A stretch of 28,000 bases of DNA, taken from a virus. This document shows positions 6,463-28,000 of the stretch, piece after piece. The position numbers were made by a program, and so were the translations under genes. The notes under the pieces were generated by a model. It was given only the letters and a program-made list of their open reading frames with translations. It did no database searches and was not told the origin of the DNA. Within the stretch, counting starts at the first letter, position 1. Every line of letters begins with the position of its first letter. The stretch is taken from positions 1 through 28,000 of the IMG/VR virus record IMGVR_UViG_3300044971_000138; one strand, 5' to 3'.

Positions 6463-6595
6463 CGTCTGGCAAGACGATGACAGTTGGTGGCACCAGCAGG
6501 ACTTGGAACTACAGCAGCGCGAGGAGCAAGAACGCATTGAGGCTTGTAACCGCGCCATTGCAGCATTAACGGAGAACAACCATGAAGGTGTATGA
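6449..6595 (+). CDS. Small acidic Gln/Trp-rich protein (48 aa)
   Basis: A 48-residue ORF with a strong GGAGGTGA ribosome site before ATG 6449; that site sits inside the preceding small ORF. The product is acidic and Trp-rich at the start (WQDDDSWWHQQDLEL) and then one helix (QQREEQERIEACNRAIAALTENN) that could form a coiled coil. Its end overlaps the ERF gene start by 14 bases. The tight packing and good ribosome site support a real gene of unknown role. Confidence 0.6.
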   Translation: MEPDNVWQDDDSWWHQQDLELQQREEQERIEACNRAIAALTENNHEGV

Positions 6596-9567: not shown

Positions 9568-9851
9568 GCCTACGCAAAGAAGCCAAAGGGCGCGGCTGCA
9601 CGGTGCGTATACCGGGCGTCTGTAACTTCAACAGCGAAACGACTGTGTTGGCGCATATCCGCATTGCAGGCGTGTCAGGCATGGGCCTCAAGGCACCCGA
9701 CCTTTTGGGGGCGTGGTGCTGTTCTGCCTGTCACGCAGAGGTTGACGGCCAAACGCATACGAGCGGCCTTACCCGCGATGAGTTGCGCCTTGCGCTGTAC
9801 GACGGGATGGCGCGAACGATCTGGCAGTTACACAAAGAGGGGCTGATATGA
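9564..9851 (+). CDS. DUF1364-family phage protein (Cys/His-rich, HNH-like)
   Basis: A 95-residue protein with the DUF1364 signature: LRKEAKGRGCTVRIPGVCN, then TTVLAHIRIAGVSGMGLKAPDLLGAWCCSACHAEVDG. Cys12, Cys20, Cys52, Cys53, Cys56 and the His residues would hold a zinc ion, and the arrangement resembles small HNH-type nucleases of lambdoid nin regions. A role in DNA recombination or repair is the usual proposal, unproven for this protein. It starts and ends in ATGA overlaps. Confidence 0.82.
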   Translation: MSLRKEAKGRGCTVRIPGVCNFNSETTVLAHIRIAGVSGMGLKAPDLLGAWCCSACHAEVDGQTHTSGLTRDELRLALYDGMARTIWQLHKEGLI

Positions 9852-10396
9852 ACTTCTGGTGCGACACGCCCTATACCACCGCTCATGTGCGTAACGAGTT
9901 CCTGCACGACCATGAGAAGGGCAAAGGTGAATTTACCCTCTGCACCGTGTTCGGCTTTCGCGCTGAACCCATGCGCGTCCCTATGTTCCAAATCATGCTG
10001 GAGAACGGCGCACAATGGGCGCGTATCCCGATCCACGCGCTGTGCAGTAAGCCTTGCCCAGAAATGGCGCTGCCGCTTGTCGTGTGGTGGGATTCGTTCT
10101 CGCGCAACTGTCAGGTCAAGGAGGTGGCGTTCCTGCGTAACCACCGGGTCAAGGCGATAGGCCGCGACGGGGTGCAGCGCCCGGGGACGTACCTGATGAC
10201 GGTATTCTGGTGCGACGGCGGGTGGAGCGAAGTGCCGGATCAGAGCAAAGACCATCACCTAATCGCATTAGACTCTGGACAATGGATCGCCTATCCCAAC
10301 AACCGCCTACTCTGGTCAGACCCGTCGTGGATCAGCGGGGACGTTCCGCGAGGTTGGAAGTCACCATCGACGAACTACACCGTGGAGGGCGTATGA
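9848..10396 (+). CDS. Conserved phage protein of unknown function
   Basis: A 182-residue protein that resembles uncharacterised phage proteins with the sequence features FWCDTPYTTAHVRNEFL, FGFRAEPMRVPMFQIMLENGAQWARIPI, HRVKAIGRDGVQRPGTYL and HLIALDSGQWIAYPNNRLLW. It is rich in Trp and beta-strand, with no membrane segment or catalytic motif I can point to. ATGA overlaps on both sides place it in the early operon. I do not know a function. Confidence 0.68.
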   Translation: MNFWCDTPYTTAHVRNEFLHDHEKGKGEFTLCTVFGFRAEPMRVPMFQIMLENGAQWARIPIHALCSKPCPEMALPLVVWWDSFSRNCQVKEVAFLRNHRVKAIGRDGVQRPGTYLMTVFWCDGGWSEVPDQSKDHHLIALDSGQWIAYPNNRLLWSDPSWISGDVPRGWKSPSTNYTVEGV

Positions 10397-10700: not shown

Positions 10701-10835
10701 GGGATCGTCTAACGGCAGGACATTAAGTATACTCACCTGTAGTTCAATGGTAGAACCCCAGACTTTGACTCTGGTAATCCTTGTTCGAGTCAAGGCAGGT
10801 GATCCATGCAACCCCGAGTCCTAGTCCCTCAACCA
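10698..10835 (+). pseudogene. Decayed tRNA whose halves flank the intact tRNA-Gln
   Basis: TGAGGGA (10698-10704) is fully complementary to TCCCTCA (10825-10831), which is followed by A and CCA, as in an acceptor stem. After the 5' arm comes GTCTAACGGCAGGAC, a good D-arm with the GG pair. Before the 3' arm comes CCCGAGT, a damaged T-loop followed by CCTAG. The anticodon arm and the 5' side of the T-stem are missing, replaced by the complete tRNA-Gln. The two acceptor arms also supply the stop codons of the flanking convergent genes. Confidence 0.6.
10733..10806 (+). tRNA. tRNA-Gln (anticodon TTG)
   Basis: A complete cloverleaf. Acceptor TCACCTG pairs 7/7 with CAGGTGA, then T discriminator and encoded CCA. 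The anticodon stem CCAGA/TCTGG holds the 7-base loop CTTTGAC with anticodon TTG. The T-arm is CCTTG-TTCGAGT-CAAGG. It reads CAA, and by wobble CAG. It follows the early operon on the same strand and is probably cut from that transcript. The 1065-residue virion fibre in this window is about 19 per cent Gln, a plausible reason to carry it. Confidence 0.95.
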
Positions 10836-12801: not shown

Positions 12802-15072
12802 TTAAGATGCCGGATATGTTGCTGAAATGTAAATATAAGCCGCTTCATTAACGCAATCTTGTTCCGTAATTGCGCCATCATCAGCAGAACCAAAAATTCT
12901 ACCGGATGAACTGTTAAAATAAGCCGTTAGCATTGTTCCACCAGTCCAATTCAAATTATTAGTCATTACTGTTCCAATTGCTTCTGCGGTTGTATTAAAA
13001 GGCAAACCGCCAATGCTTACTTTTCCAGTTCCAGTTAGGGCCGTGTACTCCAAATAAATGTTTATAGATACCAATCGCCCGACTTTTGTGTAATTTCCAA
13101 CTTGCGAAACATATGTTGTAGTTCCTGGCGTGGTTGATCCGTTAATCGTCGGCGTAAATGTCCCCTCCTCATAATCATCCAGCGTGTTCGCGTTGGACGC
13201 TGCCGATTGCGTGGCGGGGAAGGTGATGCCGTTGCTGACTTGGATGACGCCGCCGTTTGCGGTTGCTGTGTTGACGCCGACCAGCAGTTCTCCCGCCGCC
13301 GTGATGCGGGCGCGTTCGGTGGCGTTGGTGGCAAAAATAAGTGGCGAGTTTATGTAATTGTAAAGGTAAGCATTTTCGCTAGAGTCAATGCCAACCGCTA
13401 ACCCGCTTGACGTTGTGGTTCCTGTAGTGCTGTTTTGAAAAAGAAAAAATGCTTCGTCGCTGGTAGAGTTGCGAACGCGGTTGCGATTTGTTGAACTACC
13501 AGAAACAACATCAAGACGGTCAAGCGGACTCGCCGTGCCGATGCCGACGTTGCCCACGGCCCCTGTCTCCGTGGAGATTTTGAAATAACTAGTTGTATCG
13601 GTAGGGTCTAAAACATGAAGCGCATAACGCGCAGAGGCGCTGCCACCAGCAGTTATTTTTAGCCCAAATCCGTTGGTTGCATCACTATTTGTAATTATTT
13701 GAGCAACGCCACTAGACGTTACAACTTGCAACTTCGCCGCCGGACTCGTCGTGCCGATGCCGAGGTCGCCGGAGGCGGTTAGCGTCATATTGATATTGCG
13801 GGCTGATGCTCCAGATGAAAAATTTATCGGCCCGTTATATGCGCCAAGGTACAAACCGCCCGTAGACGTGGCTTCAATAATTCCAGCGTTTGCCCACCCA
13901 GTAACGCCAAACCCTAACGAGCCGCCCATTGCAAAAACAATGCGTTCGTCTGTGATGCTGCTACCGGCTGCGTCTGTGTTAACAATAGTATTGAAAATAG
14001 TCCCGGTTGAATTCCCGGTGTTTGTTAACGTGCTGCCATCAAACGTCAGCGCACTCCCGCTCGTCGCCACCTTGCTGCCGTCCAGATACACCACGCCTCC
14101 GGCGGTGCCGGAGGAGAGGGTGAGGTTGCCCGAGAGTACCGCTGCACCGACGTTGACCGACGCGATAGAGGCACCCGTGACCGTGAGGCCCGTGACCACC
14201 GCCGTGCCGAGGTTAGCCGAGGCGATGCTGGCCGAGGTGCTGGTAAGGTTCGTGACCGTTCCCGTAGTGACGAGCGCCACCGCCGCATTAGCAGACGCAA
14301 TGGAGGCCGACGTAGAGGTGAGATTAGTCACCGTGCCTGTGGTAACAACCGCCACAGCCGCGTTTATAGAGGCCGTGGAGACGGTCGGCAGGTCTGACTT
14401 GCCCGTGACCGAGAGGGTGCTGCCGAGCGTTGCTGCGCCCGTAACGTTGAACGTGCCGCCGACCGACAGCGCCGAGGTGATCGACACGTTGGCCTGTAGC
14501 CCCGTGTTACCCGTCACCGTCAGCGTGCCGTTGATCGTCGTATTGCCGAACGAGTTGGCGGCGTTAATCATTTGGAAGCGCGTGCCGTCATAGACGATGA
14601 CGACGACTTCGCCCGAGTTGATGTCACCGGCTGCGAGGGCGGTGCTGCCGTCGCGGGTGATCGCCTTTGCGCCGAGGCCGTCTACGTTGATCGTGACCGC
14701 GCCTGTGTTGGCAGCGTTGGCGATGAAATAAAGAAGTTGACCGGCAGCGTAGGCGGTCAATTGCGGTGACATCGACCCTGTGATCGTGTCTGTCCCCGTG
14801 ACCGTGATGAGTTTGGCGGCTGTGGACTGCACTTGACCCAAGTTCGCAGCGTCTGTGGCGGCGGTGCCTGCTCCAAGCGTCGTGATCTTGTTGTTGCCAA
14901 ATGGGATGTTGGCCGTAACGGTGGTTTGGCCGTCCTTGGTGATAGCCGTAGAGAGGCCCGTCGCAAGGTCAGCGGTCAGCGAGTTAAAGACCGTGGCCGA
15001 AATGACGGTGTTAGCGACGACAGGTTGGCCTGCCGAGTTGATAAGGAACGTCCCGCTGCCGTTGTAACTCAT
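12802..15072 (-). CDS. Tail fibre protein
   Basis: A 756-residue fibre. The N-terminus (MSYNGSGTFLINSAGQPVVANTVISATVFNSL) and the segment NKITTLGAGTAATDAANLGQVQ are typical of phage fibre attachment regions. A long Ser/Thr/Ala/Gly-rich beta-repeat shaft follows. GIGTTSPAAKLQV, GIGTASPLDRLDV and RARITAAGELLVGVNT are the usual modules of receptor-binding fibres. The end (PTINGSTTPGTTTYVSQVGNYTKVG...AAYIYISATYPAS) is a likely tip domain. No S74 chaperone is present, unlike the 1065-residue fibre. GAGAGG precedes ATG 15072. Base composition switches between GC-rich framework and AT-rich inserts, suggesting domain exchange. The host receptor is unknown. Confidence 0.85.
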   Translation of the reverse strand: MSYNGSGTFLINSAGQPVVANTVISATVFNSLTADLATGLSTAITKDGQTTVTANIPFGNNKITTLGAGTAATDAANLGQVQSTAAKLITVTGTDTITGSMSPQLTAYAAGQLLYFIANAANTGAVTINVDGLGAKAITRDGSTALAAGDINSGEVVVIVYDGTRFQMINAANSFGNTTINGTLTVTGNTGLQANVSITSALSVGGTFNVTGAATLGSTLSVTGKSDLPTVSTASINAAVAVVTTGTVTNLTSTSASIASANAAVALVTTGTVTNLTSTSASIASANLGTAVVTGLTVTGASIASVNVGAAVLSGNLTLSSGTAGGVVYLDGSKVATSGSALTFDGSTLTNTGNSTGTIFNTIVNTDAAGSSITDERIVFAMGGSLGFGVTGWANAGIIEATSTGGLYLGAYNGPINFSSGASARNINMTLTASGDLGIGTTSPAAKLQVVTSSGVAQIITNSDATNGFGLKITAGGSASARYALHVLDPTDTTSYFKISTETGAVGNVGIGTASPLDRLDVVSGSSTNRNRVRNSTSDEAFFLFQNSTTGTTTSSGLAVGIDSSENAYLYNYINSPLIFATNATERARITAAGELLVGVNTATANGGVIQVSNGITFPATQSAASNANTLDDYEEGTFTPTINGSTTPGTTTYVSQVGNYTKVGRLVSINIYLEYTALTGTGKVSIGGLPFNTTAEAIGTVMTNNLNWTGGTMLTAYFNSSSGRIFGSADDGAITEQDCVNEAAYIYISATYPAS
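14212..14361 (-). repeat. Tandem 25-residue repeat in the tail fibre with divergent codons
   Basis: Two adjacent 75-base copies (14287-14361 and 14212-14286) encode peptides that agree at 24 of 25 residues and contain TTGTVTNLTSTSASIASAN. Sixteen of the 24 shared residues use different synonymous codons. A shorter, looser copy follows (LGTAVVTGLTVTGASIAS). Confidence 0.88.
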
Positions 15073-15074
15073 CG

Positions 15075-17183
15075 TTAAATCCTCTCTCGTTGTGCCGCGC
15101 CAGTTGCGCCTATGCGCCCTGATGCTTGCTGTGCTGCCTTTTGCGCCGCCGCACGCCTGTCTATATACAATCTCAAGTTGCGCAGTTCATCTTGCGCAGG
15201 CTGGCCTTTTAACAACAACAATTCTGCCAACTGTTGTCGTTGCCGTTCCGTTAATTTTTTTGCACCGCCCTTTTCTGCAATCGTTGCTGCCGTTGTCAGT
15301 ACGTCGCCTTGCGCCGCTTGTGTTGCTCGAAGCGCCTGTGCAAGCACGTTTTGATCTTGTTCGCCCATAATTAAGCGGCCAGTCTGCGAACCTTCACCCA
15401 TTCGGGCAGTTTTTTGCAGTTCTGCCTCACGCAACACCGTGGCTTGAAAATCTCTAAAGTTGTTTCCAAAGATCAACCGCAACCGCTTCTGCATTGCAGG
15501 CGATTTCTGCAAATTCATCAGTTTGGTTTGCCCTGCCGGTGTTCCGGCCTGATCCCTTAACGCTTGGGCAGCGCCAAGACGGAATGCCCGCAACTGCGAA
15601 GGTTCCATGTCGTCAATAATGTCGGATATTTCCTCAACATCCTCGTTCATCACCTTGCGACCGCGCTCCATCGCGGTTTTAAGTTGCGTTTCGCTACCAA
15701 AGTTTGCGCGAGCAAGTTGGTAAATGCTTTGACCTTGATTGTCTTTCGGAGAAATCTGGTCAAGTTTGTCAATAAACTCGCGGCGCAAATTAGTGTAGGC
15801 GCGGCTTTTTTCGGTTGCTTTTCCAATGGGCGTTCTTGCGGCATCTTCAATGTCGTACAACGTCTTTTTTAGCGTGTCCAACACTTCAAACGGCACTCTG
15901 TCGCCCGGGCGCAAATTGCCAAGGTTAAGTTTTTCCATGCCTTCAACTAACGCCAGTTCTTCAGCCTCTGAAAACGCTTTGCTGGCGCGGCTAATTAATT
16001 TTGCAAGCCCAGCGTCAACCGGAAAATCAACATTTTCAAGTTGCGCGTAGTACGGCGCTGACTTTGCTCTGGCTTGTTCTGTGTATTGGTTGACAGTAGC
16101 GCGGTAGGGGATGTTTTCCGCGTCTAAAGCGCGATCTGAAGCGGCAATAAGTCTATCGCCACGCTGATTGACAAGTGGCCGAGTGCCACGCTCAATCATG
16201 CCCATCGTTGAACCGGGCTGATTGCGGAGCAACCCTAATTCGCTACGTGTTGCCGCGCCTGTTGCGGCAATTGGAGCCTCTGGCCCAAGACCGCCGCCGC
16301 GAGGGCGTTGCAATCGCGCAGCAGCAACGGCAATCGGGTCAGCCTCAATGCCGCTCGTCAACATGTCCAATTCTTCTTGCAACTGCGCCTTTAGTTTAGA
16401 CGGCCCGGGCAGCACTTTGAGTTGTCGCTCAAGTTCTGTAACGCGGTCTTGTTTCGAAATAGTGTCTGGCGGCATCCGCGCATACAGATCGCGCTGCAAC
16501 AACTGTGCAAGACGTTCCCGCGCAGGTTGCAATTCAAAATCTTGACGCATTCCCGGCACCATTCTACGAATGGCCGCACCGCCGCCCTTAATGCCAAGGC
16601 CAGCCGCGCCGCCCGTAGCAATACCTGCGCCAGTTCCGTACAAAACGTCTGTCGCTAATTCTTGCGCGGTTTCCGCTTCACTTGCGCCTGCCGCACCCAA
16701 TGCGCTTTGTCCTGCAATTGGGGCGATATAACCAGCGCCTCGACGAATTGCGTTAGCGCCCAACGGGGCGGCTGAACCGCCCATCGTGAACGGCACCGTA
16801 GCAAGGCCGCCTGCCGTTTCAAGAACGGGGGCCAATACGGGATTTCTTTCTGCAAACGCCGTCGTTGCGCCACGCACAAACTGCTGCATTGGCGGGCCTG
16901 CTTGCATAGGATCAAACTGCGGCCCTTGAATGCCCGCCATGCCCATGCCGCGCTGCATTTGAGAAGCGCCGCGCATAGCCTCTGCGCCAGCCAACTCATC
17001 CAAGAATTGCGAGGTAAGCCCTTGGCCCGTGGTCAATACGCCTTGCAAAAATGGCGATGCTTGCGACCCCGCTTGGAAAGCGGTTGGCTTCAATTGTTGC
17101 AATTCTTCCCATTTGCCGCCGCGAAAAACGTATCGCTGGCCCGTTTCTTTGTTGGTTGCTGTTGCGCCTTCTTGGTAAGCCAT
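15075..17183 (-). CDS. Internal virion / DNA-ejection protein (putative)
   Basis: A 702-residue protein. It begins AYQEGATATNKETGQRYVFRGGKWEEL, a small beta module often seen at the N-terminus of phage internal proteins. Gly/Ala-rich hydrophobic stretches follow (GGLATVPFTMGGSAAPLGA and GTGAGIATGGAAGLGIKGGGA, about residues 125-205) that could insert in membranes. A long charged helical region fills the rest, and the end (RRAAAQKAAQQASGRIGATGAAQRER) is basic. Size, composition and position between nozzle and fibre genes match T7/P22-type ejection proteins that form a DNA channel through the host envelope. I see no lytic transglycosylase motif. AAGGGGAG precedes ATG 17183. Confidence 0.62.
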   Translation of the reverse strand: MAYQEGATATNKETGQRYVFRGGKWEELQQLKPTAFQAGSQASPFLQGVLTTGQGLTSQFLDELAGAEAMRGASQMQRGMGMAGIQGPQFDPMQAGPPMQQFVRGATTAFAERNPVLAPVLETAGGLATVPFTMGGSAAPLGANAIRRGAGYIAPIAGQSALGAAGASEAETAQELATDVLYGTGAGIATGGAAGLGIKGGGAAIRRMVPGMRQDFELQPARERLAQLLQRDLYARMPPDTISKQDRVTELERQLKVLPGPSKLKAQLQEELDMLTSGIEADPIAVAAARLQRPRGGGLGPEAPIAATGAATRSELGLLRNQPGSTMGMIERGTRPLVNQRGDRLIAASDRALDAENIPYRATVNQYTEQARAKSAPYYAQLENVDFPVDAGLAKLISRASKAFSEAEELALVEGMEKLNLGNLRPGDRVPFEVLDTLKKTLYDIEDAARTPIGKATEKSRAYTNLRREFIDKLDQISPKDNQGQSIYQLARANFGSETQLKTAMERGRKVMNEDVEEISDIIDDMEPSQLRAFRLGAAQALRDQAGTPAGQTKLMNLQKSPAMQKRLRLIFGNNFRDFQATVLREAELQKTARMGEGSQTGRLIMGEQDQNVLAQALRATQAAQGDVLTTAATIAEKGGAKKLTERQRQQLAELLLLKGQPAQDELRNLRLYIDRRAAAQKAAQQASGRIGATGAAQRERI

Positions 17184-17194
17184 TGCTGCTCCCC

Positions 17195-18475
17195 TTACCG
17201 TCGATCCAGCGTTGCGCCGGGAGGCAACTGGCTGCCATAAACCGCTGGCGCAACAATATCAGGCAACATTCCCGGCATATTTCGGAAATTAGGCAACTCT
17301 CGGTAACGCGATCTAACGGCATTGCTGCGAACAATGTTGGCTCGCGCTGCTTTGTCGTTCAAATCGGCAAGATAACGCAAATTTTCATTAGTCATTTCAA
17401 TTTGACCCGCTGCCGCTTTTTCCAAGAATTTGCGGTCGTTATCAGTAAATCCTTGACCAGAACCTAAACCGCTTGTCTTGACAAGAGAAAGCGTTGTTTT
17501 TGCAAGATTTGCCGACAAATTTTCCGTAACGCTTGCGCGATCACCGGCAATAAAGCCTGCACTTGAAAGCGCTTGCTCAAGACCAAGACGAGCGTTTGCG
17601 CCAAACCCTGTAATTGGGTTTTTTACTAATAGGTCGCGCACATTGTTTGCAACTTCAATTTGCCCCAGCGCGGCTTCGCCTGCCTTAATTGTTTCAAGGT
17701 CTTGCGCTGCAATGCCCTTGGCAAATTCATCAGCCAATACGTTAGTTGTTCTTTCGCCCGGCAACACAATCGTTTTGTTGCCTGTGGTGTCAGTTAAAAA
17801 CTTTGCAAACGCCGGGTTTTGTGACGCGATCAAAAATTCTTCGTATTTGTTTGGCAAATTAGGCGCTTTTGGCGGCTTTGCCAACGCAAACGGATCGCCC
17901 GTTTCTTGGTATTTCTGACGGCTTTCTGGCGATGCTTCCATGATCGCCTCAAGACTGACCTGCGGCTGACGCGACAGCATCAATTGTGCGTACCGCTGCG
18001 CCATTGGCGTACCGCTTGCCAGCGCACGGCTCAATGTTTCCTCGCGCTGTTGATACGTCGGCATCACGGTTTCCATCATGGGCTGTTGCGCCATTTCTGG
18101 TTGGTATGCACTTGCAATGCCCGTGACATCAGTTTCTGGCAATGCACCACCCGTGACGCTGCGGGTTTGTGGGCCAAGGTCGCGGCGCAACGCTTCAAAG
18201 GCTTCCACATCAGCCTGACGCGCTTTGGCTTCAGATTGCTCTGCTTTTTCGCCTAACTTCTTGGATGTATACGCCGACAACACGCGAGCAATTGCGTTGG
18301 CGGGAGTCGGTGTAGCCCGAAACCCTTGGAACGTATATGGCTCTGCTTCTGGCTCAAAAGCCTGTTGACGCAACATTTCTGCCAATTGCTGCTGACGCTG
18401 CGCTCGCAGCATTTCCTCCTCGTAAGCCGAGGGAGCGCGAAATGTTGGGACGTTGCGAACTCTATTCTGCGCCAT
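17195..18475 (-). CDS. Internal virion protein, helical (putative)
   Basis: A 426-residue, mainly helical protein. The first 40 residues include RAQRQQQLAEMLRQQAF, a motif shared with the two genes upstream. Later segments such as KYEEFLIASQNPAFAKFL, DLVVKNP-like turns, and GSGQGFTDNDRKFLEKAAAGQI near residues 345-365 resemble internal proteins of related podoviruses. It lies in the block expected to encode ejection proteins, coupled to its neighbours. The ATG at 18475 with AGAGGAG upstream is preferred to the TTG at 18481. Function is inferred from context. Confidence 0.6.
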   Translation of the reverse strand: MAQNRVRNVPTFRAPSAYEEEMLRAQRQQQLAEMLRQQAFEPEAEPYTFQGFRATPTPANAIARVLSAYTSKKLGEKAEQSEAKARQADVEAFEALRRDLGPQTRSVTGGALPETDVTGIASAYQPEMAQQPMMETVMPTYQQREETLSRALASGTPMAQRYAQLMLSRQPQVSLEAIMEASPESRQKYQETGDPFALAKPPKAPNLPNKYEEFLIASQNPAFAKFLTDTTGNKTIVLPGERTTNVLADEFAKGIAAQDLETIKAGEAALGQIEVANNVRDLLVKNPITGFGANARLGLEQALSSAGFIAGDRASVTENLSANLAKTTLSLVKTSGLGSGQGFTDNDRKFLEKAAAGQIEMTNENLRYLADLNDKAARANIVRSNAVRSRYRELPNFRNMPGMLPDIVAPAVYGSQLPPGATLDRR

Positions 18476-18848
18476 CGTCAAAGTCTCCTCTGTACCGACC
18501 GCCCTGCGGGGTCGTCATCCCCGGCGACGACACGCGGGGACGCTGCATGTTGCCGATCTGCGGGGATCGCATTTGAGATGGCCGCATCGGCGTTGATCCC
18601 ATGCGACCGGGTGCGCCCATCATCCCCGTTGTGCCGGGTTGTGCGGTCATTTGGGGGCCGTTGAAGTTCATCATCTGTGGGGCAACGCCCGTAGCGGTGT
18701 TTGGCGTAGCGCCGCTGTAGGCGAGGCTAGGACGCATTGCGGGCATGCCGTCACGCTGCCCCGGCGGTGCGCTGATGGAGCGGTTGCGTTCTTGCAGCGC
18801 CAGCATCTGCGCCATGCGCTGCGGTCGGTCGGGTCTAAATCCGTTCAT
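18462..18848 (-). CDS. Pro/Met/Gly-rich low-complexity virion-block protein
   Basis: A 128-residue protein. Residues 10-25 hold QRMAQMLALQERNRSI, a helix nearly identical to one in the next upstream gene. The rest is disordered: repeated Pro-Met-Arg-Gly elements (MMGAPGRMGSTPMRPSQMRSPQIGNMQRP) and an acidic tip (GDFDDGAE). It starts in an ATGA overlap with the 83-residue gene and overlaps the 426-residue gene by 14 bases. A flexible linker or scaffold-like component of the internal complex seems possible; no family recognised. Confidence 0.55.
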   Translation of the reverse strand: MNGFRPDRPQRMAQMLALQERNRSISAPPGQRDGMPAMRPSLAYSGATPNTATGVAPQMMNFNGPQMTAQPGTTGMMGAPGRMGSTPMRPSQMRSPQIGNMQRPRVSSPGMTTPQGGRYRGDFDDGAE

Positions 18849-19096
18849 GCTAACCCCTGCGTGTTGATGGGCGTTACGGTGTCGTATGTGTTGCGGCCTA
18901 CGCTTTGGCCGACGCGCTTGTTAGCCATTTGGCGCATTTTGAGCAGTTCAAGCGGGTCAATAGAGGCGGTGGGCGTAGCCATTGACGGAACGTTTGCGTA
19001 ATCGGTGTTGATGCGCTGATTGGCCTCTTGCAGCGCCAGCATTTCTGCGAGGCGTTGCCCATCGGTGCGGTCTTTGTACGTTTTGGCGTAGCGCAT
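18845..19096 (-). CDS. Small helical virion-block protein (83 aa)
   Basis: An 83-residue protein with QRLAEMLALQEANQRI at residues 14-29, the same helix as in the two downstream genes, then PLELLKMRQMANKRVGQSVGRNTYDTV. It starts in a TAATG overlap with the 1065-residue fibre gene and ends in ATGA. It is probably helical and partly disordered, and may bind a partner through the shared helix. No family recognised. Confidence 0.55.
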   Translation of the reverse strand: MRYAKTYKDRTDGQRLAEMLALQEANQRINTDYANVPSMATPTASIDPLELLKMRQMANKRVGQSVGRNTYDTVTPINTQGLA

Positions 19097-22000
19097 TAGA
19101 GCATCCCGTAGTTGACCATTTGGAAGCCATCATCGCGGGTAATGACCGCTTCTGGCCGTACCTGCTCCACTTCATCAGCCATTACGCCGCGTTGGCGAGT
19201 GCCGAAAATGTCGTATTCGTACACGCCGATGCCGAGCGGGTGCGTGCCGATGCGCACAATGTTGGACTTCAAGCGGCGATCCGATGGGAAAACGCCGCCT
19301 AGCATCGCTGCGCTGCCGAGCGACCCGGCAAGGTTAAACAACCCGCCCATGTTGCTCGCGGCTTGGTTGGCTTGGATGCCATACCGCTGCATCGCGGCTG
19401 CATCCTGCGCTTGACCACCTTGGAAAATGGGCGCGGGAGCGACCGTGACGCCGCTGTAGCCTTGGAACTGCGGCACGCTGACCTGCCCGCCTGAGAGCAA
19501 TGCGCTGATCTCGTTGACTGGAAGGCTGCGGATGGCCGCTTGCTGTGCCAACGCTTGTTGCACCGCCGTGTTGTAGAACTGCTGCTGCGCAATGTTCTGC
19601 TGGAACTGCTGTTGTTGCGCGGCGTTCTGTGCGGCAAGGCGCTGGAAGTCCTGCGCTTGGTTTTGCGCGAGGGCTTGGTTGCGCAAGCCTTGGTAATCCA
19701 TGACTTGCCCGAACCGTTGCGCTTGGGCTGCGTTCTGCGCGGCTTGCTGGGCAAGTTGACGCTGATACGCTTGTGCTTGCGCTTCGTTGTAGAAACCAGC
19801 CTGTCCCGCCGCTTGTGCCGCTTGCTGCTGCTGGCGTGCAAGGTTGAACTGTGCGGCTTGTTGCTGCTGTGCAAAGTTTTGTGCAGCGGCAGCGTTGGTG
19901 AGTTCTTGAGCCTGCTGGCCCATGCCGAACTGCTGCATCAAGGCTTCGCGGTTGAATTGCTGGCCTTGGAGCGCCTGCTGGTAAGCCTGCTGCTGCGCTT
20001 GGTTAAACGCCTCACGCGAGGCCAACGCTTGCTGGAAGTTTTGCCCCCCAGCGGCGTTGATGATCTGCTGCAACTGCGCCTGCTGACCAAACTGCTGTGC
20101 GCCAAGTTGCGCCTGCAATCCGGTGACATCCTGCGCTTGGCCGAACCGTTGCGCCTGCGCGGCACGCTGCGCCTCCTCTGCGGCGAGGGCGCTCTGCAAG
20201 TTCTGCTGAACCGCTTGGTTCTGCATCTGCTGTGCGGCTTGGCCTTGGGCAAAGTTCTGCGCAATGGCTTGGTTGGCTGCTTCTTGCGCTTGCTGACCCA
20301 TGCCGAATTGAGCAAGGGCTTGTTGCTGGGCGAATTCGCCACCCGTAACTGCTTGACCAAACCGCTGTGCTTGGGCTGCGCGATCTGCCTCGGTTCCCGC
20401 CATCGCTTGCTGGAAGTTTTGGGCGATAGCGCGGTTGACGGCATCTTGCGCTGCCTGACCCGTCTGGAACGACGCCAATTGAGCCTCTCGCCCAAACTCT
20501 CCCGCCGCAAGACGTTGCGAGAACTGCTGCGCTTGCGCTTCGTTGGCGAACTGACCTGACTGCAACGCCAACTGCGTGTTTTGCGCGATAGCCTGATTGC
20601 GAGCCTGTTCGCTTTGCATCCCTGCGCCAAATCGTGCCAGTTCTGCTTCTTGACCGAACTGCGCACCCGCGAGGCGCTGCTGGAACGCTTGCTGCTGCGC
20701 TTGGTTTGCTGCGGCTTGGGTGGCAAGTGACTGCTGCACGTTTTGGCCGAGGCCGACGTTATAGAGGCCCGCCTGCTCCATGCCAGCGCCAAAGCCTTGC
20801 AGTTGCGCTTGGTTGGCGAACATTGCGCGGGACTGCTGTTCAGCAAACCCTTGCTGCCGCGCTGCTTGGTCAAGCGCAATGCCCTGCGCTGCGGCTTGCA
20901 GCAGCAGATCGTTTTCTTTTTGCGCTTGTGCCGACATTGCAGCGTTAAACGCTTCACCGCCGGGGGCAAGCCCTTGGTTGACAAGTTGTGTGTACAGTTG
21001 TTGGCGTTCGCCCTGTAACTGCGGCTGCAACCGCGACATGATCGCTTGCTGCGCCGTCGTACCGGCTTGGATCGGCGCTGCGGCCAACCCTTGTATGTCA
21101 ATCTGACCTTGTAACTGCGGGCCTTGGACGAACTGCTGTGCGTAACCGAATTGACCCTGCGCAGGAGCGCCTTGCGGGCCACCGATGCCAGAGAGGTCAA
21201 GGCCGCGAAGTTGTGGGCCAGCGACCATGCCGCCTTGCGCTTGGCCGAACTGCCCAACGCCGCCTTGGATGCCCATAAGGCCGGAGGTATCAAGCCCTTG
21301 GAACTGCACGCCGCCGGGGCCACCAGCCGCCATGCCAAACTCGCGGCCAGTCATGCCGCCTGCTACACCGCCGACACCTGCGAGGTTTAATCCCTGCAAC
21401 TGCGCGGCTTGCGGGCCACCGCCAGCCATGCCGTAAAGGCCGCCCGTGGGGCCGCCAAAGGCTTGTCCATAGGTGAAGGGGCCGGTGCCTTGCCCAACGC
21501 CGCCGACGCCCGAGTAGTCCACGCCGTACTCACGCGGAATGCCGATATAACTTGAGCCAGCGGGCGCAAAACCTGTTTCGCCTATTGCTGTCTGCGGACC
21601 GCCATACTGAAACTGTCCGAGGCCGGGTGCGGCAGGGCCGCCAAAGGCTTGCTGACCCGTTCCCATTTGCCCGGGGAGTTGTTCGGTGTAATACCCCGTC
21701 GTTGGGGCATATCCACCCGCGCCCGGGGCGTTTAATTGCATATCGCCCGTGGCAAACCCCATGTCCACAAATCCGGCCTCGCCGCGATAAGGGACATAAC
21801 TGCCGGGGGTCGCAATCGCGCCTGCACCCGGCACGCTGTATTGCAGCCCGGGGATGCTGCGAGCGTCAAAGGCCGAGGCTATTCCAAGGTCACGCAAACC
21901 GCTTGCTGCGCTTTCGGCGGCCTGCGACATGGATAACTGCGCACGCTCTTGGGAGCGCAACGCTTGCAATGCGGCATCGCTACCCAACGACTGCGTAATT

Positions 22001-22293
22001 GTCGGTTGTTCAATGTAGGTGGTGAACTGCTCTTGGGTCGGTGCTTCGCCCACATACGCGAGCGGATCGGCTAACTGCGCCGCACGGAATTGTTCCATCG
22101 CCTTGTTATAGGCGTCGGTGTCCACCGTGGGCGTTTTTGTCCAACTAACCGTTTGGCTGCCCGTTGGCCCGTAAACGTTCGGGTTAGACATATAGGCCGA
22201 TTGCTTGGCGGCTGCCAAGTTGGCCTCACCCTGCTTGATCGCAAGGGTGGTGTAATCAGGTGCTGGCGGCGGTGCCGGTGATCTTTTGCCCAT
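19096..22293 (-). CDS. Gln/Ala-rich 18-residue-repeat fibre or needle protein with C-terminal S74 chaperone
   Basis: A 1065-residue protein in four parts. Residues 1-290 are mixed with Gly/Tyr-rich stretches. Residues 290-400 hold three to four Gly-rich repeats around the elements QLQGLNLAGVGG, QFQGLDTSGL and QLRGLDLSGIGG. Residues 466-915 are twenty-five consecutive 18-residue units rich in Gln and Ala. Residues 1004-1065 form an intramolecular chaperone of the peptidase S74 type, beginning SDRRLKSNI, where Ser1004 and Lys1009 fit the self-cleaving pair described for endosialidase tail spikes; VMADEVEQV follows. S74 domains trimerise fibres, so a trimeric, mostly helical rod is likely. Gln is about 19 per cent of the protein. 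Its place between nozzle and ejection genes also allows an ejection-tube or needle role. Confidence 0.82.
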   Translation of the reverse strand: MGKRSPAPPPAPDYTTLAIKQGEANLAAAKQSAYMSNPNVYGPTGSQTVSWTKTPTVDTDAYNKAMEQFRAAQLADPLAYVGEAPTQEQFTTYIEQPTITQSLGSDAALQALRSQERAQLSMSQAAESAASGLRDLGIASAFDARSIPGLQYSVPGAGAIATPGSYVPYRGEAGFVDMGFATGDMQLNAPGAGGYAPTTGYYTEQLPGQMGTGQQAFGGPAAPGLGQFQYGGPQTAIGETGFAPAGSSYIGIPREYGVDYSGVGGVGQGTGPFTYGQAFGGPTGGLYGMAGGGPQAAQLQGLNLAGVGGVAGGMTGREFGMAAGGPGGVQFQGLDTSGLMGIQGGVGQFGQAQGGMVAGPQLRGLDLSGIGGPQGAPAQGQFGYAQQFVQGPQLQGQIDIQGLAAAPIQAGTTAQQAIMSRLQPQLQGERQQLYTQLVNQGLAPGGEAFNAAMSAQAQKENDLLLQAAAQGIALDQAARQQGFAEQQSRAMFANQAQLQGFGAGMEQAGLYNVGLGQNVQQSLATQAAANQAQQQAFQQRLAGAQFGQEAELARFGAGMQSEQARNQAIAQNTQLALQSGQFANEAQAQQFSQRLAAGEFGREAQLASFQTGQAAQDAVNRAIAQNFQQAMAGTEADRAAQAQRFGQAVTGGEFAQQQALAQFGMGQQAQEAANQAIAQNFAQGQAAQQMQNQAVQQNLQSALAAEEAQRAAQAQRFGQAQDVTGLQAQLGAQQFGQQAQLQQIINAAGGQNFQQALASREAFNQAQQQAYQQALQGQQFNREALMQQFGMGQQAQELTNAAAAQNFAQQQQAAQFNLARQQQQAAQAAGQAGFYNEAQAQAYQRQLAQQAAQNAAQAQRFGQVMDYQGLRNQALAQNQAQDFQRLAAQNAAQQQQFQQNIAQQQFYNTAVQQALAQQAAIRSLPVNEISALLSGGQVSVPQFQGYSGVTVAPAPIFQGGQAQDAAAMQRYGIQANQAASNMGGLFNLAGSLGSAAMLGGVFPSDRRLKSNIVRIGTHPLGIGVYEYDIFGTRQRGVMADEVEQVRPEAVITRDDGFQMVNYGML
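19549..20898 (-). repeat. Twenty-five tandem 18-codon repeats without indels
   Basis: Residues 466-915 of the fibre divide exactly into 18-residue units. Position 18 is Phe or Tyr in 19 of 25 units, and position 11 is Asn in 16. A higher-order 54-residue period is clear in the first half (AIAQN in every third unit), with one extra unit inserted in the third super-repeat. DNA copies have diverged, so the periodicity is kept at protein level. Confidence 0.93.
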
Positions 22294-22699
22294 ACCGAGG
22301 CTCCAAATATCGACACTTGTCAGGTGTCTGCGTCATCAAAACAATGTCCCCAGAATCGTGCGCGGCTCCTTTGATTCGCGCTTCTTCCGAAAACCCCATC
22401 TTGCTGACCAATGCGAGCGCCCGGGTATGGTTGCTGCTGATTGGCCCAATGATCTTATCAACTTTCGCAACGTTGTAGGGATAGTCATACACCGCTGCCA
22501 AATACGCCGGGGTCACTTGCTGCCAAACGATGTGGCACATCACGCTGACCCCGTTCCAGTTCTCGTATACCGTCCCAGCGACGATTTCGCCGTCGCGTTC
22601 TAGGCCGATGGCAACTGACCGATTAGGGTCAAACCCGCCCTCTGTCTGAGCGGTGACCCATGCCCCAACATGGGGGCCGGTTACGATGCGCCAGCCCAT
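22256..22699 (-). CDS. GNAT-like acetyltransferase of phage tail region
   Basis: A protein of about 147 residues resembling GNAT-fold proteins in phage structural clusters. VAIGLERDGEIVAGTVYENWNG matches the central strands. VDKIIGPISSNHTRALALVSKMGFSEEARIKGA matches the acetyl-CoA-binding helix and the usual N-x-A-x-x-x-x-x-x-x-GF ending. It could acetylate a virion or host protein, or be catalytically idle. The start is uncertain: ATG 22699 overlaps the nozzle gene end by 19 bases, and a GTG at 22732 in the same frame has a weak GGAG. Its end overlaps the fibre gene start by 38 bases. Confidence 0.72.
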   Translation of the reverse strand: MGWRIVTGPHVGAWVTAQTEGGFDPNRSVAIGLERDGEIVAGTVYENWNGVSVMCHIVWQQVTPAYLAAVYDYPYNVAKVDKIIGPISSNHTRALALVSKMGFSEEARIKGAAHDSGDIVLMTQTPDKCRYLEPRYGQKITGTAAST

Positions 22700-24258
22700 C
22701 CGAGTTGGTACACGATGTCCGTTGACGCCCACTCCAATGTCAGGTTCTTGCTGCTGCTGTTGAAATTAACGCCCGCGCAATACCCGATGCCTTGGAGGCC
22801 CACGAAGTTGTTGGTAACGACCGTATCCGACCCCCAGAGTGCTTGACCCCACAACCCTACGTCCCAGAGGCCGTAAGCGGTAGGCGAAAACGAGAGGGGG
22901 CCAACGATGTCAGCGGTCTGGAAATCCACGTTGACGCCGATGCTGATGGATGGAACGCCATTGCTATAGATCGTCGGTCGCCCACGGGTGAAATACTTGA
23001 TGACGCCGCGAGTTTCAAAGTAGTTGAAGGCTTGCAATGCGCGAGCGGGGATGGCAGCGCCGTTATCTGCGAACGACGTTGTACCTGATCCCGTTGTCCA
23101 CGCCTTTGCCACAACGCCGTCGGTGCCGAAATAGGGCGTGTCGTTTAGCAGCGTCCAAGCGTTTGCATACCAGCCCGTAAACCGGCACCACGCCTTCGTG
23201 ATGTTGTTCATCACAAACTGTTGTTGCTGGCCCGTGCTGACGGGAATGTTGATGATGAGGGCGTTGTTGAGCGGGTTGTAAAGCAGTCCCCACCCAAAAT
23301 TGGCCTTGTACTGCCGTGTCGCTGCTGCAAATGCGCCTTGAATCTTGTCAGAAAGGGCTACTTGCGGGTCTAAACGCGATGATTGCAGCGCCGAGGCGAG
23401 CGGGATTAGTCCATCCAACGTCAACACCAGCAAATCGCCGCCGTATTTCGTAACGCACCGACGAGAAATAGGCGAACCGACCTGCCAAACGCCAATCAGC
23501 GCCCATGTTGATGCGCTTGAGGGATCGGTGCCGCGATAGACGATGATTTCGCCTTGATCGGTTATGAAAACAAGGTTGTCGTCAACGCCATAGCCCGCGT
23601 CTATCGTCCATGTCGCCATCGCAATCAGTCGCCCACCGTTGCGAGCCACCGATGACAAGTCAAGAACGTTTGCCGCGCCGCCTACCGATGCCGTGGGCAA
23701 ATACCACGCCTTCAACGTGTCCTTTTGGATAAACCACATGCGGTTTTTGAACAGCGTGGGGCCGTGCAAATCCGTTGTGGTGACGCCTGTGATGGCAGGA
23801 CTGCTGCTGCCGTCAATCGGTGTCCACGTTGACCCGTTGTAGAGCAGCGGCTTGTCTACGCCGTTGGCTGCGTAAAGAAAACTGCCGCCCGCAGTCGTGA
23901 TATTGGCGTATTCAAAGCGGCTGTTGGTTAGCCCTGTGACCACCGCAGCGCCCACCGCCCCTGCTGCGGTAACGTCGAAAATTTCGCCGCCTACGATGGC
24001 GAACATTTCGTCGTTGGTGCCGCCGTTGAAGGTCATCAGCGTTTCAATCTGCCCCGACATTCCCGTAGCGTGCGGTTCCCAGCCACCACGCAACCCAACA
24101 CTTGAAACGCCGGGGAACAGATTGTCCAGCGTTACCGCGTCGGTCGGAGCCATATTGGCGAGCGAGTCGCGGGCGTTCCAGCCGCCCACGGGGGCGGGGA
24201 GCGAGGCGACGTTGTTGCTCGTCCTCTGGATTAACCGGCGGCGAACGGGCGATGCCAT
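22681..24258 (-). CDS. Tail nozzle / hub beta-propeller protein
   Basis: A 525-residue protein. The opening GGWNARDSLANMAPTDAVTLDNLFPGVSSVGLRGGW is typical of short-tailed phage nozzle or stabilisation proteins (T7 gp12 / P22 gp10 class). The body is repeated beta-blades with motifs such as LFKNRMWFIQKDTLKAWYLP, DNLVFITDQGEIIVYRGTDPS and GGDLLVLTLDGLIPL, fitting a propeller. It would form the distal tail tube that opens for ejection. It follows the adaptor gene with only the HNH gene between them. ATG 24258 has GGGGATG upstream. Confidence 0.8.
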   Translation of the reverse strand: MASPVRRRLIQRTSNNVASLPAPVGGWNARDSLANMAPTDAVTLDNLFPGVSSVGLRGGWEPHATGMSGQIETLMTFNGGTNDEMFAIVGGEIFDVTAAGAVGAAVVTGLTNSRFEYANITTAGGSFLYAANGVDKPLLYNGSTWTPIDGSSSPAITGVTTTDLHGPTLFKNRMWFIQKDTLKAWYLPTASVGGAANVLDLSSVARNGGRLIAMATWTIDAGYGVDDNLVFITDQGEIIVYRGTDPSSASTWALIGVWQVGSPISRRCVTKYGGDLLVLTLDGLIPLASALQSSRLDPQVALSDKIQGAFAAATRQYKANFGWGLLYNPLNNALIINIPVSTGQQQQFVMNNITKAWCRFTGWYANAWTLLNDTPYFGTDGVVAKAWTTGSGTTSFADNGAAIPARALQAFNYFETRGVIKYFTRGRPTIYSNGVPSISIGVNVDFQTADIVGPLSFSPTAYGLWDVGLWGQALWGSDTVVTNNFVGLQGIGYCAGVNFNSSSKNLTLEWASTDIVYQLGWAGAS

Positions 24259-24296: not shown

Positions 24297-24782
24297 ATGG
24301 AAATTTGGAAACCTGTAGTTGGTTATGAGGGGTTGTACGAGGTTTCTGATGCTGGACGTATTCGTAATATGCGTACGGGCAAAATTAAGACGTATACGCA
24401 TGACCGGCAAAAACGTCGGCCTTTTGTTGGGCTTTGGCGTAACAACAAAATTCGCATTATTTACCCGCACAAAGCGGTGTTGGAGGCTTTTGTTGGCCCA
24501 CGCCCATCGCGCATGGAGGCTTGCCACAACAATGGCGATCCGTTTGACAATCGGCTTGAAAACTTGCGATGGGATACTTCGCGCAACAATCAACTGGATC
24601 GCATTAAACATGGCACCTCCAACAGAGGGGAGCGATGCGCTGCGGCTAAATTGACCGAAGCGCAAGTGCTGGCTATTCGTGCCGATACGCGGTTTCAACG
24701 TGAAATTGCTGCGGATTATGGCGTTCAGGAAAACACCATTAGTCGCATCAAATCGCGGCAAAGGTGGAGCCACGTTCATTGA
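24297..24782 (+). CDS. HNH homing endonuclease (NUMOD4 + HNH + HTH)
   Basis: A 161-residue free-standing homing endonuclease. EIWKPVVGYEGLYEVSDAGRIRNM is a NUMOD4 DNA-binding module (residues 2-25). The HNH core is HKAVLEAFVGPRP...ACHNNGDPFDNRLENLRW (about 54-93). The C-terminal KLTEAQVLAIRADTRF...IAADYGVQENTISRIKSRQRW is a helix-turn-helix found in many relatives. It would cut phage DNA lacking this insertion and spread by repair. It lies on the strand opposite its neighbours, between adaptor and nozzle genes, and overlaps the adaptor end by 7 bases. GGGAGG precedes ATG 24297; the upstream ATG at 24276 is less likely. Confidence 0.93.
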   Translation: MEIWKPVVGYEGLYEVSDAGRIRNMRTGKIKTYTHDRQKRRPFVGLWRNNKIRIIYPHKAVLEAFVGPRPSRMEACHNNGDPFDNRLENLRWDTSRNNQLDRIKHGTSNRGERCAAAKLTEAQVLAIRADTRFQREIAADYGVQENTISRIKSRQRWSHVH

Positions 24783-25687
24783 CTGTCGGTTCCGTAATTT
24801 GAGTCCGGCAAATTGTCGTAGCCGATGAGAACGGTGCCGGGGCGCGGCGCAAACGAGAGGTTAGCGGCTGCCGTGTCTTGCCCCACCGCTGTCTCAAACT
24901 CCATGAGGTAATCGCGGTAAAGGGCGGTCGTGTCAAAACCCTTGGCCTCAAAATACTTGAGTTTTGTACCCAGCACCATGAGGCGGTCGGGGTAGATGCA
25001 GGTATCGGTGTCAGCGGTAAACGAGTTCTTTGGCGTGCCGTCTGCGGCCTCTGCCCATGCCTTGCTGCGGTACTCAAACCCGAGCAATTCGCCCGCATTC
25101 ATACCCGGCCAAATCTGGAAGTATTTGCCGAGCAGACGCCAGCGGATACGTGGGCCGGTGCTGATGTACCCCGAGAGCAGCCATTCCCATTGCTGCGGGG
25201 ACTCGGGGCCGAGCATTTCCCAACGCTTGCTCTTGTCCCAATGCGTGCGGTTGACCGTGCTGACGTAATCCGCAGGCAGGTCGTATTTGACCTTTTGGAA
25301 AAGCACCTGCCCACCTATCTGCGCCTCAGTTGGCGTGTAGTTGAGCGTCACGCTGGTCGGGCCTACGCCTGTGACGTAGGTGGCGTTCGGGATGCCCACG
25401 CCTTGCACTTGATACTGCGTTGACAGCCCTGCTGTAGACGGTATGCCGGTGATTGTCGCTGCCGAGGTTGTCCACGTTCCCGTGGTCGTGATCGCCTCGG
25501 TGTAGAACGTATGCTGGCGCGTCAGTTCTCGCCAGTCAGCACGACGGAGCAATTCGTAACCACACGCATTCATCAGCGCCAGCAACTGCACAACGTCTTG
25601 GCTGTTGTTGCCCGCTACGGTGGTCGGGGTCGGGATGCCTAATTCTTGCGTGCATTCCGTAATCAATTGCACCATCGTGCTGCCCAT
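24776..25687 (-). CDS. Head-tail adaptor / tail tube protein
   Basis: A 303-residue protein. VQLITECTQELGIPTPTTVAGNNSQDVVQLLALMNACGYELLRRADWREL (residues 6-56) is the helical opening of podovirus adaptor proteins (P22 gp4 / T7 gp11 class). A beta insertion follows (TTGTWTTSAATITGIPSTAGL...), then KVKYDLPADYVSTVNRTHWDKSKRW and a helical end (RLMVLGTKLKYFEAKGFDTTALYRDYLMEFETAV). It would form the ring below the portal that receives the nozzle. GGAGG precedes ATG 25687; ATG 25675 is an alternative. The 3' end overlaps the HNH gene. Confidence 0.75.
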   Translation of the reverse strand: MGSTMVQLITECTQELGIPTPTTVAGNNSQDVVQLLALMNACGYELLRRADWRELTRQHTFYTEAITTTGTWTTSAATITGIPSTAGLSTQYQVQGVGIPNATYVTGVGPTSVTLNYTPTEAQIGGQVLFQKVKYDLPADYVSTVNRTHWDKSKRWEMLGPESPQQWEWLLSGYISTGPRIRWRLLGKYFQIWPGMNAGELLGFEYRSKAWAEAADGTPKNSFTADTDTCIYPDRLMVLGTKLKYFEAKGFDTTALYRDYLMEFETAVGQDTAAANLSFAPRPGTVLIGYDNLPDSNYGTDSQ

Positions 25688-26248: not shown

Positions 26249-27076
26249 TTACAGGTTGTTGACCTGTGTTACGGTACAAATTACAGAGGGAATTGCGGGA
26301 TAAACGCTTGTGGCGCTTGCCGCGAGTAAAACTACGTCGGTGTCGTCGGCCTCGTACATCAATTCTACATAATTGGTGGCGTCAAGTTGTATCAAGAAGT
26401 TCCAAGCGGCGACTACCTCTGCTGAAGAACCTTGAATAACCACTCGGCTTGCCGTGTTCGGCACGTTGGTGCCGTTTTTGCGTAGCCAAATATGGATAAC
26501 TGCCGCTGCGCCAGAGGTTTTATCCAACTGCGCCGAAAACTGGACGTTGTAGACGCCTTGATTGTCCACCACGATGCGCGACGTAGGCGAGCCAATGCTG
26601 ACGCCGTTTGCCGCGTCGGTGGTGGTAAACGTCATTGCATAAGCGGTATTGATTGATGCAACGGTCTGAAGTGCTGTGCTTGAAAACGCACCGTAGTGCA
26701 GGATCGGAACCGCGCCGTTAAACCCTTGCAGTTCTTCCCACGCGCTGTTGCTAACGGCAAAAAACGCCGCTGCGCTGCCGATATTAATTACCGCTGAACT
26801 TGCACCGTTAATTGTAGATGCTGCCTCATACGGGTACACCGTCAGCGCGTTTGCACCCGAGTTGGTTATCCATATCAACTCGCCCATTTCGGTCGGCGGC
26901 AGTTTGACGCCAGCGCCCGAGGCCACCGTGGTGATGTTGTTGTAGACAAACGTGATCGCTGTGGCGTTGCCCGCTGACGTTCCTGCTGCGCTTACCGAGG
27001 CATTACCGTCACCGCAAATGGAAACGGTGGACAGGCTGTTGACGCCTGACCCTAGCACGCGAGACGGGATCGCCAT
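26249..27076 (-). CDS. Virion jelly-roll (C1q/TNF-like) protein
   Basis: A 275-residue Ser/Thr/Ala-rich protein. Residues 1-120 form a beta-rich domain (GVKLPPTEMGELIWITNSGANALTVYPYE resembles phage decoration proteins). Residues 125-272 (YGAFSSTALQTVASINTAYAMTF ... IVVDNQGVYNVQFSAQLDK ... VIHIWLRKNGTNVPNT ... FLIQLDATNYVELMYEADDTDVVLLA) have the strand order of a C1q-like jelly roll. Such proteins decorate heads or form short trimeric fibres. Starts in a TAATG overlap after the DUF115-like gene. Confidence 0.7.
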   Translation of the reverse strand: MAIPSRVLGSGVNSLSTVSICGDGNASVSAAGTSAGNATAITFVYNNITTVASGAGVKLPPTEMGELIWITNSGANALTVYPYEAASTINGASSAVINIGSAAAFFAVSNSAWEELQGFNGAVPILHYGAFSSTALQTVASINTAYAMTFTTTDAANGVSIGSPTSRIVVDNQGVYNVQFSAQLDKTSGAAAVIHIWLRKNGTNVPNTASRVVIQGSSAEVVAAWNFLIQLDATNYVELMYEADDTDVVLLAASATSVYPAIPSVICTVTQVNNL

Positions 27077-27852
27077 TAGGCCGCCTCGGCTTGGTTCTTG
27101 CGCACGTACATGATTTCTGCAATCAGTCCGTCGCCTTTTACGTCAAGGTTGAGGTCGGGCATGACCTCAAACAGTTTCTGAAACTCGTTGGCCTGCTGGG
27201 CCATTGCCATGTTGCAGTTAAACTTCCTGCCAAGCGGGCCGCCTACCCAAATGTCCACAGTTGCACCCGGCATTTCGCCGCCGAACCGCTTGCGACCGTC
27301 TGGGCCGTTGCATGAATCGTATCCGTACATCGTGAAGTTACGGAATCCAAGTACATAGCCGATATTGATGGCTCGTAGCCCCGAGGTCGTGCCGCCACCC
27401 ACAGCAACCTTGCCGGGGCCGATGGCTTCCATTTCCGGCCCGGGCGCCCATGAATGCCACAGCAGCACTTTGCGCCCTTTCAGATAATCAAACATGGAAG
27501 GCGGGCAGCGCGAAGCGGGCATGTACGTGGTGTCATCGTTCAACCGCTGTATGCAGTTGGTGCGGTCGCGGGGGTCTAGGCTGATCCACAGCGTCGGATT
27601 GATGCCGTGTTCTACGAGGAAGTCATGTGCGCCCTTAATGGCGACAATTGGGCGTCCTGCCTTTTGGTGCGCCCGTATTTCTTCAACAAACTCGGGCATT
27701 GACCACCCGCTCGCCACCAGCACCATGTTGCCATCGTGTTTGGTGGGAGCGAGGGTCAACTCTGGCAGACCACGGCCAAGCGCCGAGCGGATGTTGGAAC
27801 ACAGTTCCTCCTCCGTACCCGCCGCCTGTACCGTGATCTCCAGCGGTTGCAT
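27076..27852 (-). CDS. DUF115 / MptE-like Rossmann protein (glycosylation-linked family)
   Basis: A 258-residue protein of the DUF115 type. HDGNMVLVASGWSMPEFVEEIRAHQKAGRPIVAIKGAHDFLVEHGINPTLWISLDPRD is the nucleotide-binding Rossmann half. VGGGTTSGLRAINIGYVLGFRNFTMYGYDSC is the conserved Gly-rich segment with the final aspartate. Relatives include 6-hydroxymethylpterin diphosphokinase MptE and Maf proteins that act in flagellin glycosylation with nonulosonic acids. In the structural module it may modify a virion protein; this is inference. ATG 27852 forms a TAATG overlap with the previous stop; the in-frame upstream start at 27900 would add a Cys-rich run from inside the previous gene. Confidence 0.72.
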   Translation of the reverse strand: MQPLEITVQAAGTEEELCSNIRSALGRGLPELTLAPTKHDGNMVLVASGWSMPEFVEEIRAHQKAGRPIVAIKGAHDFLVEHGINPTLWISLDPRDRTNCIQRLNDDTTYMPASRCPPSMFDYLKGRKVLLWHSWAPGPEMEAIGPGKVAVGGGTTSGLRAINIGYVLGFRNFTMYGYDSCNGPDGRKRFGGEMPGATVDIWVGGPLGRKFNCNMAMAQQANEFQKLFEVMPDLNLDVKGDGLIAEIMYVRKNQAEAA

Positions 27853-28000
27853 TAGGTCGTGACCGAACCCGTTGCAACGTGGACATAACCCGCAATGCAA
27901 GTCACCGCAGAGGCCGAGGCCGCCGAGGTGGTTGCAACGAGGCCCGCCACAAGGCCACCCGACACCACGGCGTCGTCAAGCGACCCGGCGGTGGAGGTGG
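27852..28000 (-). CDS. Virion structural protein, partial (C-terminal end)
   Basis: The last 49 codons of a gene entering from the right edge, ending at TAA 27854-27852. The peptide is Ala/Val/Thr/Gly-rich (SLDDAVVSGGLVAGLV, ATTSAASASAVTCIAGYV, HVATGSVTT), like the ends of beta-rich phage head or decoration proteins. The start of the next gene overlaps its stop. Nothing more can be said from this fragment. Confidence 0.6.
   Translation of the reverse strand, partial: TSTAGSLDDAVVSGGLVAGLVATTSAASASAVTCIAGYVHVATGSVTT

Follow-up and report, generated by a model that had tools for sequence, protein, structure and literature searches.

What kind of virion component is built around an uninterrupted array of 18-residue repeats? 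The question is raised by an open reading frame encoding 1065 aa (19096..22293, minus strand) in the window, the whole 28,000-nucleotide stretch analyzed here (positions 1 to 28,000 of IMG/VR record IMGVR_UViG_3300044971_000138), which comes from a freshwater short-tailed phage. The protein, which is 19% Gln, matches the profile of PHROG 6121 (virion structural protein) with an E value of 7.7e-46 and shares an N-terminal domain, a core, and a C-core with other members in alignments. PHROG 6121 covers the family, while Pfam and NCBIfam contain no model for it apart from S74. Relatives are numerous in IMG/VR, prophage versions are found in bacterial genomes, and array-less members occur in annotated Sulfitobacter, Rhizobium, EBPR, and Microcystis podoviruses.

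The array itself (19549..20898, minus strand; residues 466 to 915) divides without gaps into 25 units, as originally predicted, and an identity-lag analysis against 2,000 composition-preserving shuffles agrees. Identity at lag 18 is 122, compared with 73 ± 7 in the shuffles, and values at lags 54 (146 versus 67) and 72 (136 versus 64) are similarly raised. None of the 2,000 shuffles matched the array at lag 18, 36, 54, or 72, so that both the 18-residue period and the predicted 54-residue super-period are real. Position 18 is Phe or Tyr in 19/25 units and position 11 is Asn in 16/25, as had been claimed, and we also find Gln at position 16 in 22/25 units and Ala at position 13 in 21/25. Asn11 recurs in 387 of the 513 distinct array units collected from the family, and proline is found in none of the 513. 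In the array-unit analysis, Asn11, Phe/Tyr18, and Leu4 lie together on the same side of the helix. Position 18 lines up along the helix, with positions 9 and 13 on the opposite face. The single straight aromatic stripe of the original prediction is not recovered, as the hydrophobicity period of the family is 4.5 residues (P = 0.002) rather than 3.6. Such a period is unusual for a simple helix and counts against the stalk model developed below.

The original prediction had further compared the array, through aromatic spacings of 11 and 18 residues, with tape-measure proteins. Tape-measure proteins, for example those of lactococcal phages, are helical, vary in length, and do carry aromatic residues at repeated intervals, and to this extent the ruler of a long tail resembles what is seen here. 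The comparison fails on the spacing, because the aromatic pairs of the array lie at lag 9 (14 pairs) and lag 18 (15 pairs), with zero at lag 11. The tubeA/tubeB order of the neighboring genes is that of a short-tailed phage, neither the window nor its annotated relatives showed a tail-tube or tail-chaperone gene, and no PHROG tape-measure match was obtained. A tape-measure function is thus extremely improbable.

The array is one of several segments. An N-terminal domain (21886..22257, minus strand; residues ~13 to 136), predicted as helix, beta-hairpin, and helix with a pLDDT of about 70 to 94, is conserved as far as array-less homologues. It is followed by a Gly-rich linker (21079..21885, minus strand; residues ~137 to 405) with a 32-residue repeat of its own (z = 18.5) and by a central core (20899..21078, minus strand; residues ~406 to 465; RLQPQL...NQGL.PGGEA...END), where pLDDT reaches 94. 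The core thus separates the two repeat regions, with the linker on its N-terminal side and the array on its other side. The array leads into a C-core (19429..19548, minus strand; residues ~916 to 955; RSLPVNEISALLSGGQV.VPQFQGY) that is strongly conserved across the family.

Array length was taken as the HMM-measured distance from the conserved core before the array to the conserved C-core after it. Comparing repeat counts between related phages, as the original prediction had suggested, gave whole-unit steps throughout: all 93 long-array sequences, which include the window and two identical copies and comprise 62 distinct arrays, are offset from the window array by whole multiples of 18 residues and range from 15 to 28 units. 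A single sequence that seemed to depart from whole-unit steps (L057) is explained by an anchor error. Near relatives whose cores are 98 to 99% identical differ by 1 or 3 units. Mid-length arrays of prophage lineages mostly sit on the same 18-step ladder (127, 145, 163, 181, 199, 217, 235, and 253 residues), while some other short-array lineages sit off it. Quantization alone does not prove structural selection, because the units are alike at lag 18 but not at a lag of 9, and misaligned recombination could therefore also favor 18-residue steps.

A biased Gln/Ala and Gly-rich composition, together with low AlphaFold2 confidence, is what one would expect if array and linker were low-complexity filler without a defined fold, expanded by slippage. 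The array, however, is under purifying selection, with a dN/dS of about 0.09 (median of 327 non-independent pairs), compared with 0.055 for the core. Two units of one relative (L004) are identical in protein (18/18) at only 78% DNA identity, exact 18-residue steps are kept in all 62 distinct arrays, proline is lacking from all 513 units, and array length is coupled to that of a separate segment. Filler is accordingly a very improbable explanation. Recent tandem duplication as the sole cause of the array was likewise rejected, as no tandem repeat is detectable at the DNA level and identical units differ synonymously.

The coupled segment is the Gly-rich linker. Its length follows 56.2 + 10.57 × units (r = 0.9994; n = 217 homologues with 0 to 28 units), a gain of 10.57 residues per 18 array residues; the relationship was first found in long-array members alone (r = 0.998) and holds in the short-array branch alone (slope, 10.34; r = 0.976; n = 124), all these correlations overstating the independent evidence owing to kinship among the homologues. 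Independent contrasts on the core tree retain an r of 0.93, with 57/58 contrasts of the same sign for array changes of at least 9 residues. With the HMMs and the fit frozen, linker length was then predicted for 72 newly fetched, non-identical homologues of 2.8 to 9.8 units, array lengths mostly new to the sample, and all 72 fell within 11 residues of the prediction (RMSE, 4.7; mean residual, -3.3; refit slope, 9.7; r = 0.986). The ratio of the linker period to the array super-period, 32/54 = 0.593, is the same as the coupling ratio. Unrelated linker sequences in distant lineages, such as DRTGELQRGVL repeats (L127) and GKIQTALGAA-like repeats (L138), obey the same rule. N-terminal domain length is weakly related to array length (rho = 0.26). 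This length-coupling rule is a new result and formed no part of the original prediction.

One clear break in the coupling was observed. A near-perfect 47-residue array duplication in two relatives (L154 and L156) is absent from a third (L182) with an equal linker, possibly because of a collapsed assembly.

The coupling suggests that linker and array join the same two points, as both must then keep equal physical length. It would be predicted equally well if the two segments did not touch and each spanned a fixed distance in the virion or cell envelope, for example from the inside of the head to the tip of the tail, with some third ruler determining both lengths. We consider this improbable, as unit number does not correlate with the length of tubeA, of tubeB, or of either of two downstream genes, and close relatives with near-identical cores change linker and array together.

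Structure prediction bears on the array in part. The original prediction had envisaged one continuous helix of about 67 nm; AlphaFold2 monomer models do place helices over most of the array, yet these are mostly of low confidence (10-residue mean pLDDT of about 35 to 72) with several breaks, so a single continuous helix is not shown. The linker is modeled as disordered, with pLDDT mostly below 50, and helix-linker packing is not readable from the model. Foldseek searches with the full model and with a one-unit homologue gave no PDB match at E < 0.001; the viral matches were for the most part S74 proteins from uncultured phages. Sequence searches of the PDB found one relative only, the S74 region of a long tail fiber (6f45; E = 6e-4). 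The lack of proline, the exact 18-residue steps in 93 sequences, and the length-matched second segment nevertheless make a helical rod-like element likely.

With slightly better than even confidence, we propose that the virion of this ejectosomal (P22/Mx8-like) podovirus contains the protein as a stalk whose length evolution can adjust, putatively folded as a hairpin and belonging to the ejection module. The stalk, the hairpin fold, and the helix rise are all inferred from sequence. After the N-terminal domain, the chain would form an extended Gly-rich strand, turn at the conserved central core, which would form the stalk tip, and return as the helical array to the C-core, packed near the N-terminal domain at the base. 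Each gain or loss of n units, about 27 Å apiece if alpha-helical, would be matched by about 10.6n strand residues, which corresponds to a linker rise of about 2.5 Å per residue if the helix rises 1.5 Å, a plausible value for an extended Gly-rich chain. Several copies may form a rod or a conduit wall whose length is set by unit number, with the protein acting as the first ejection-position protein. Against the model stand the low AlphaFold2 confidence for array and linker and the lack of a solved structure among the Foldseek matches. In addition, for a phage whose genome measures ~40 kb, a straight rod of 67 nm would be hard to store inside the head.

The C-terminal end bears on where such a stalk might act. 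A Gly/Ala-rich hydrophobic segment (19285..19362, minus strand; residues ~978 to 1003), with a mean KD of 0.4 to 0.5 versus -0.5 elsewhere, resembles the tails of P22 gp7 and LUZ24 gp53 and is itself the C-terminus in S74-less relatives. In the window protein it is followed by a short S74-like domain (19099..19284, minus strand) that starts with SDRRLK and thereby holds the Ser-Lys motif SDxRLK (S1004...K1009). Against Pfam PF13884 this domain scores 19.2 bits, with a curated cut-off of 22; among relatives, 38/65 match at E ≤ 0.01, and one (L161) is above the cut-off. SDRRLK is present in 87/108 S74 members. A C-terminal coiled coil after the VNY motif is not found in the window protein, and 100/108 S74 members end 3 to 7 residues past that motif. 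The original prediction had coupled the array to a trimerizing S74 domain. Dependence on such a domain is not supported across the family, as S74 is absent from 40 to 42 of 91 long-array relatives, a figure that varies with scoring, and is truncated in nearly all the others. The S74 "chaperone" thus recurs as an optional addition to a non-fiber podovirus gene. Intramolecular chaperone (ICA; S74) domains are known to cleave at Ser. If cleavage occurred at this Ser, the mature C-terminus would resemble the end of S74-less relatives, and the short S74 may serve as an optional cap, probably a cleavable one, over the hydrophobic tail.

The short-tailed gene order inferred in the original prediction is supported. 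All on the minus strand, tubular tail A (adaptor; 24776..25687), tubular tail B (nozzle, of the Mx8/Pr lineage and related to Mx8 tubeB; 22681..24258), and an N-acyltransferase-like gene in the P22 gp14 position (22256..22732) are followed by the stalk gene, by injection proteins, among them a 702-aa protein related to pCB2047-C gp11 and placed like the injection protein of phiGT1 (15075..17183), and by a fiber-like protein (12802..15072). The same order is found in phiGT1, which has been described as ejectosomal (PMC10386132), and in P22 as gp14-gp7-gp20-gp16, which places the stalk gene in the slot of the first ejection protein (P22 gp7/T7 gp14).

Profile comparison did not extend the match to the sequences, with hhalign probabilities of 0.6 and 1.0 percent for P22 gp7 and LUZ24 gp53, and the assignment of the stalk protein as a homologue of either was rejected. 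The phiGT1 member taken without S74 has no ejection PHROG match, and a candidate link of phiGT1 to PHROG 4287 was discarded, as it vanishes once the S74 part is removed. S74 does occur on ejection proteins, as shown by an "ejection protein" encoded at this position in a Pseudoalteromonas phage, in which a gp7-like half (PHROG 598; 2e-15) is joined to an S74 end. Literature searches on 18-residue phage repeats or on S74 in ejection proteins found nothing specific. As there is no gp7/gp53 homology, the proposed role in DNA ejection is drawn from synteny and S74 sharing, and we regard it as moderately supported.

The same stalk might instead be an external helical tail fiber, needle, or side appendage attached to the exterior of the nozzle, its core or S74 end reaching the host. 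The geometry suggested by the length coupling also fits this reading, S74 domains are mostly found on fibers and spikes, and a rod of 40 to 76 nm is easier to accommodate outside a podovirus than inside its head. We nevertheless think it rather unlikely, though to be taken seriously, as the gene lies between the gp14-like acyltransferase and the injection proteins with separate fiber genes downstream, array-less members of ~300 aa occupy the same slot, and S74 is optional and truncated. As between a needle or fiber and a part of an ejection tube, syntenic position thus favors the ejection module for the putative stalk.

Several features of the neighborhood were noted along the way. The tubeB/nozzle gene is called an "amidase" by PHROG 5107 and in several records, a label without Pfam support that is probably a misannotation. 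The length of the fiber-like protein tracks unit number in 11 loci (rho = 0.99), which, as the sequences are few and related, may reflect phylogeny or truncation. The three small to medium-sized genes directly after the stalk gene (18845-19096, 18462-18848, and 17195-18481) have in common a short "Q..AEML..Q"/"RMAQMLALQE" motif, as if partly duplicated. Antisense to the array lies a 339-aa open frame (19540-20559, plus strand) that looks like a by-product of repeat composition. An MptE-like gene (27076-27900) adjoins the structural module, and the window also contains a C5 cytosine methylase, an ERF and YqaJ recombination pair, and a PHROG "ferredoxin" moron (4714-5886, 6582-7765, and 9848-10396). 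The window also carries a single tRNA gene, tRNA-Gln(ttg), at 10733-10806 (plus strand). It is the sole tRNA in the fetched records, found in the window and in 3/16 long-array but 0/14 short-array records; from these small numbers it was possibly acquired once. No CAA enrichment was found in the array codons.

The coupling provides a quantitative rule, predictive for 72/72 new sequences, in an abundant virion protein family lacking functional annotation. Should the stalk interpretation be right, the stalk length of each phage could be read from its sequence, a role in envelope crossing or receptor reach would become directly testable, and nature would have supplied a new design of protein rod dialed by whole units.

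The true relatives of the window protein are those of Sulfitobacter phages phiGT1, NYA-2014a, and pCB2047-A/C, Rhizobium phages RHph_I3_18/N2, and EBPR podovirus 2, named as PHROG 6121 or S74 "structural protein," which have the N-terminal domain, core, C-core, and gene slot seen in the window. The annotated relatives checked, however, either lack an array or carry about one unit at most and are about 300 to 345 aa long, whereas the window protein has 25 units and 1065 aa. With S74 ICA domains, many members have in common the SDxRLK motif and the profile match; here the domain is short, lacks the trailing coiled coil, is attached to a non-fiber gene, and is absent from many relatives. Like P22 gp7 and T7 gp14, the protein is encoded after a gp14-like acyltransferase and before larger ejection proteins and has a Gly-rich hydrophobic C-terminal tail. 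Homology to these proteins is undetectable, however, and their known members, of about 180 to 240 aa (PMC8954989), lack an array.

A structural analogue may be the stalk of streptococcal antigen I/II, in which separated helical (A) and extended (P) repeats intertwine and the N- and C-terminal domains lock at the base, with the stalk of the antigen I/II protein BspA pairing through an Asn seam (PMC7732690). By this analogy, the phage protein likewise has two separated repeat regions flanking a putative tip, with matched lengths, and Asn11 of its array shares a helix face with Phe/Tyr18 and Leu4. The antigen I/II strand is Pro-rich, the order of the repeats is reversed, and the protein belongs to the cell wall, whereas the phage strand is Gly-rich, and homology is not expected. 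We therefore suggest, tentatively and at somewhat less than even confidence, that a phage-specific class of paired-repeat stalk has evolved independently as a length-adjustable part of the ejection machinery, in which length is quantized, ranging from about 0 to 28 units among proteobacterial and freshwater podoviruses, and each 18-residue helical unit is matched by a Gly-rich strand of ~10.6 residues (54 to 32 per super-repeat).
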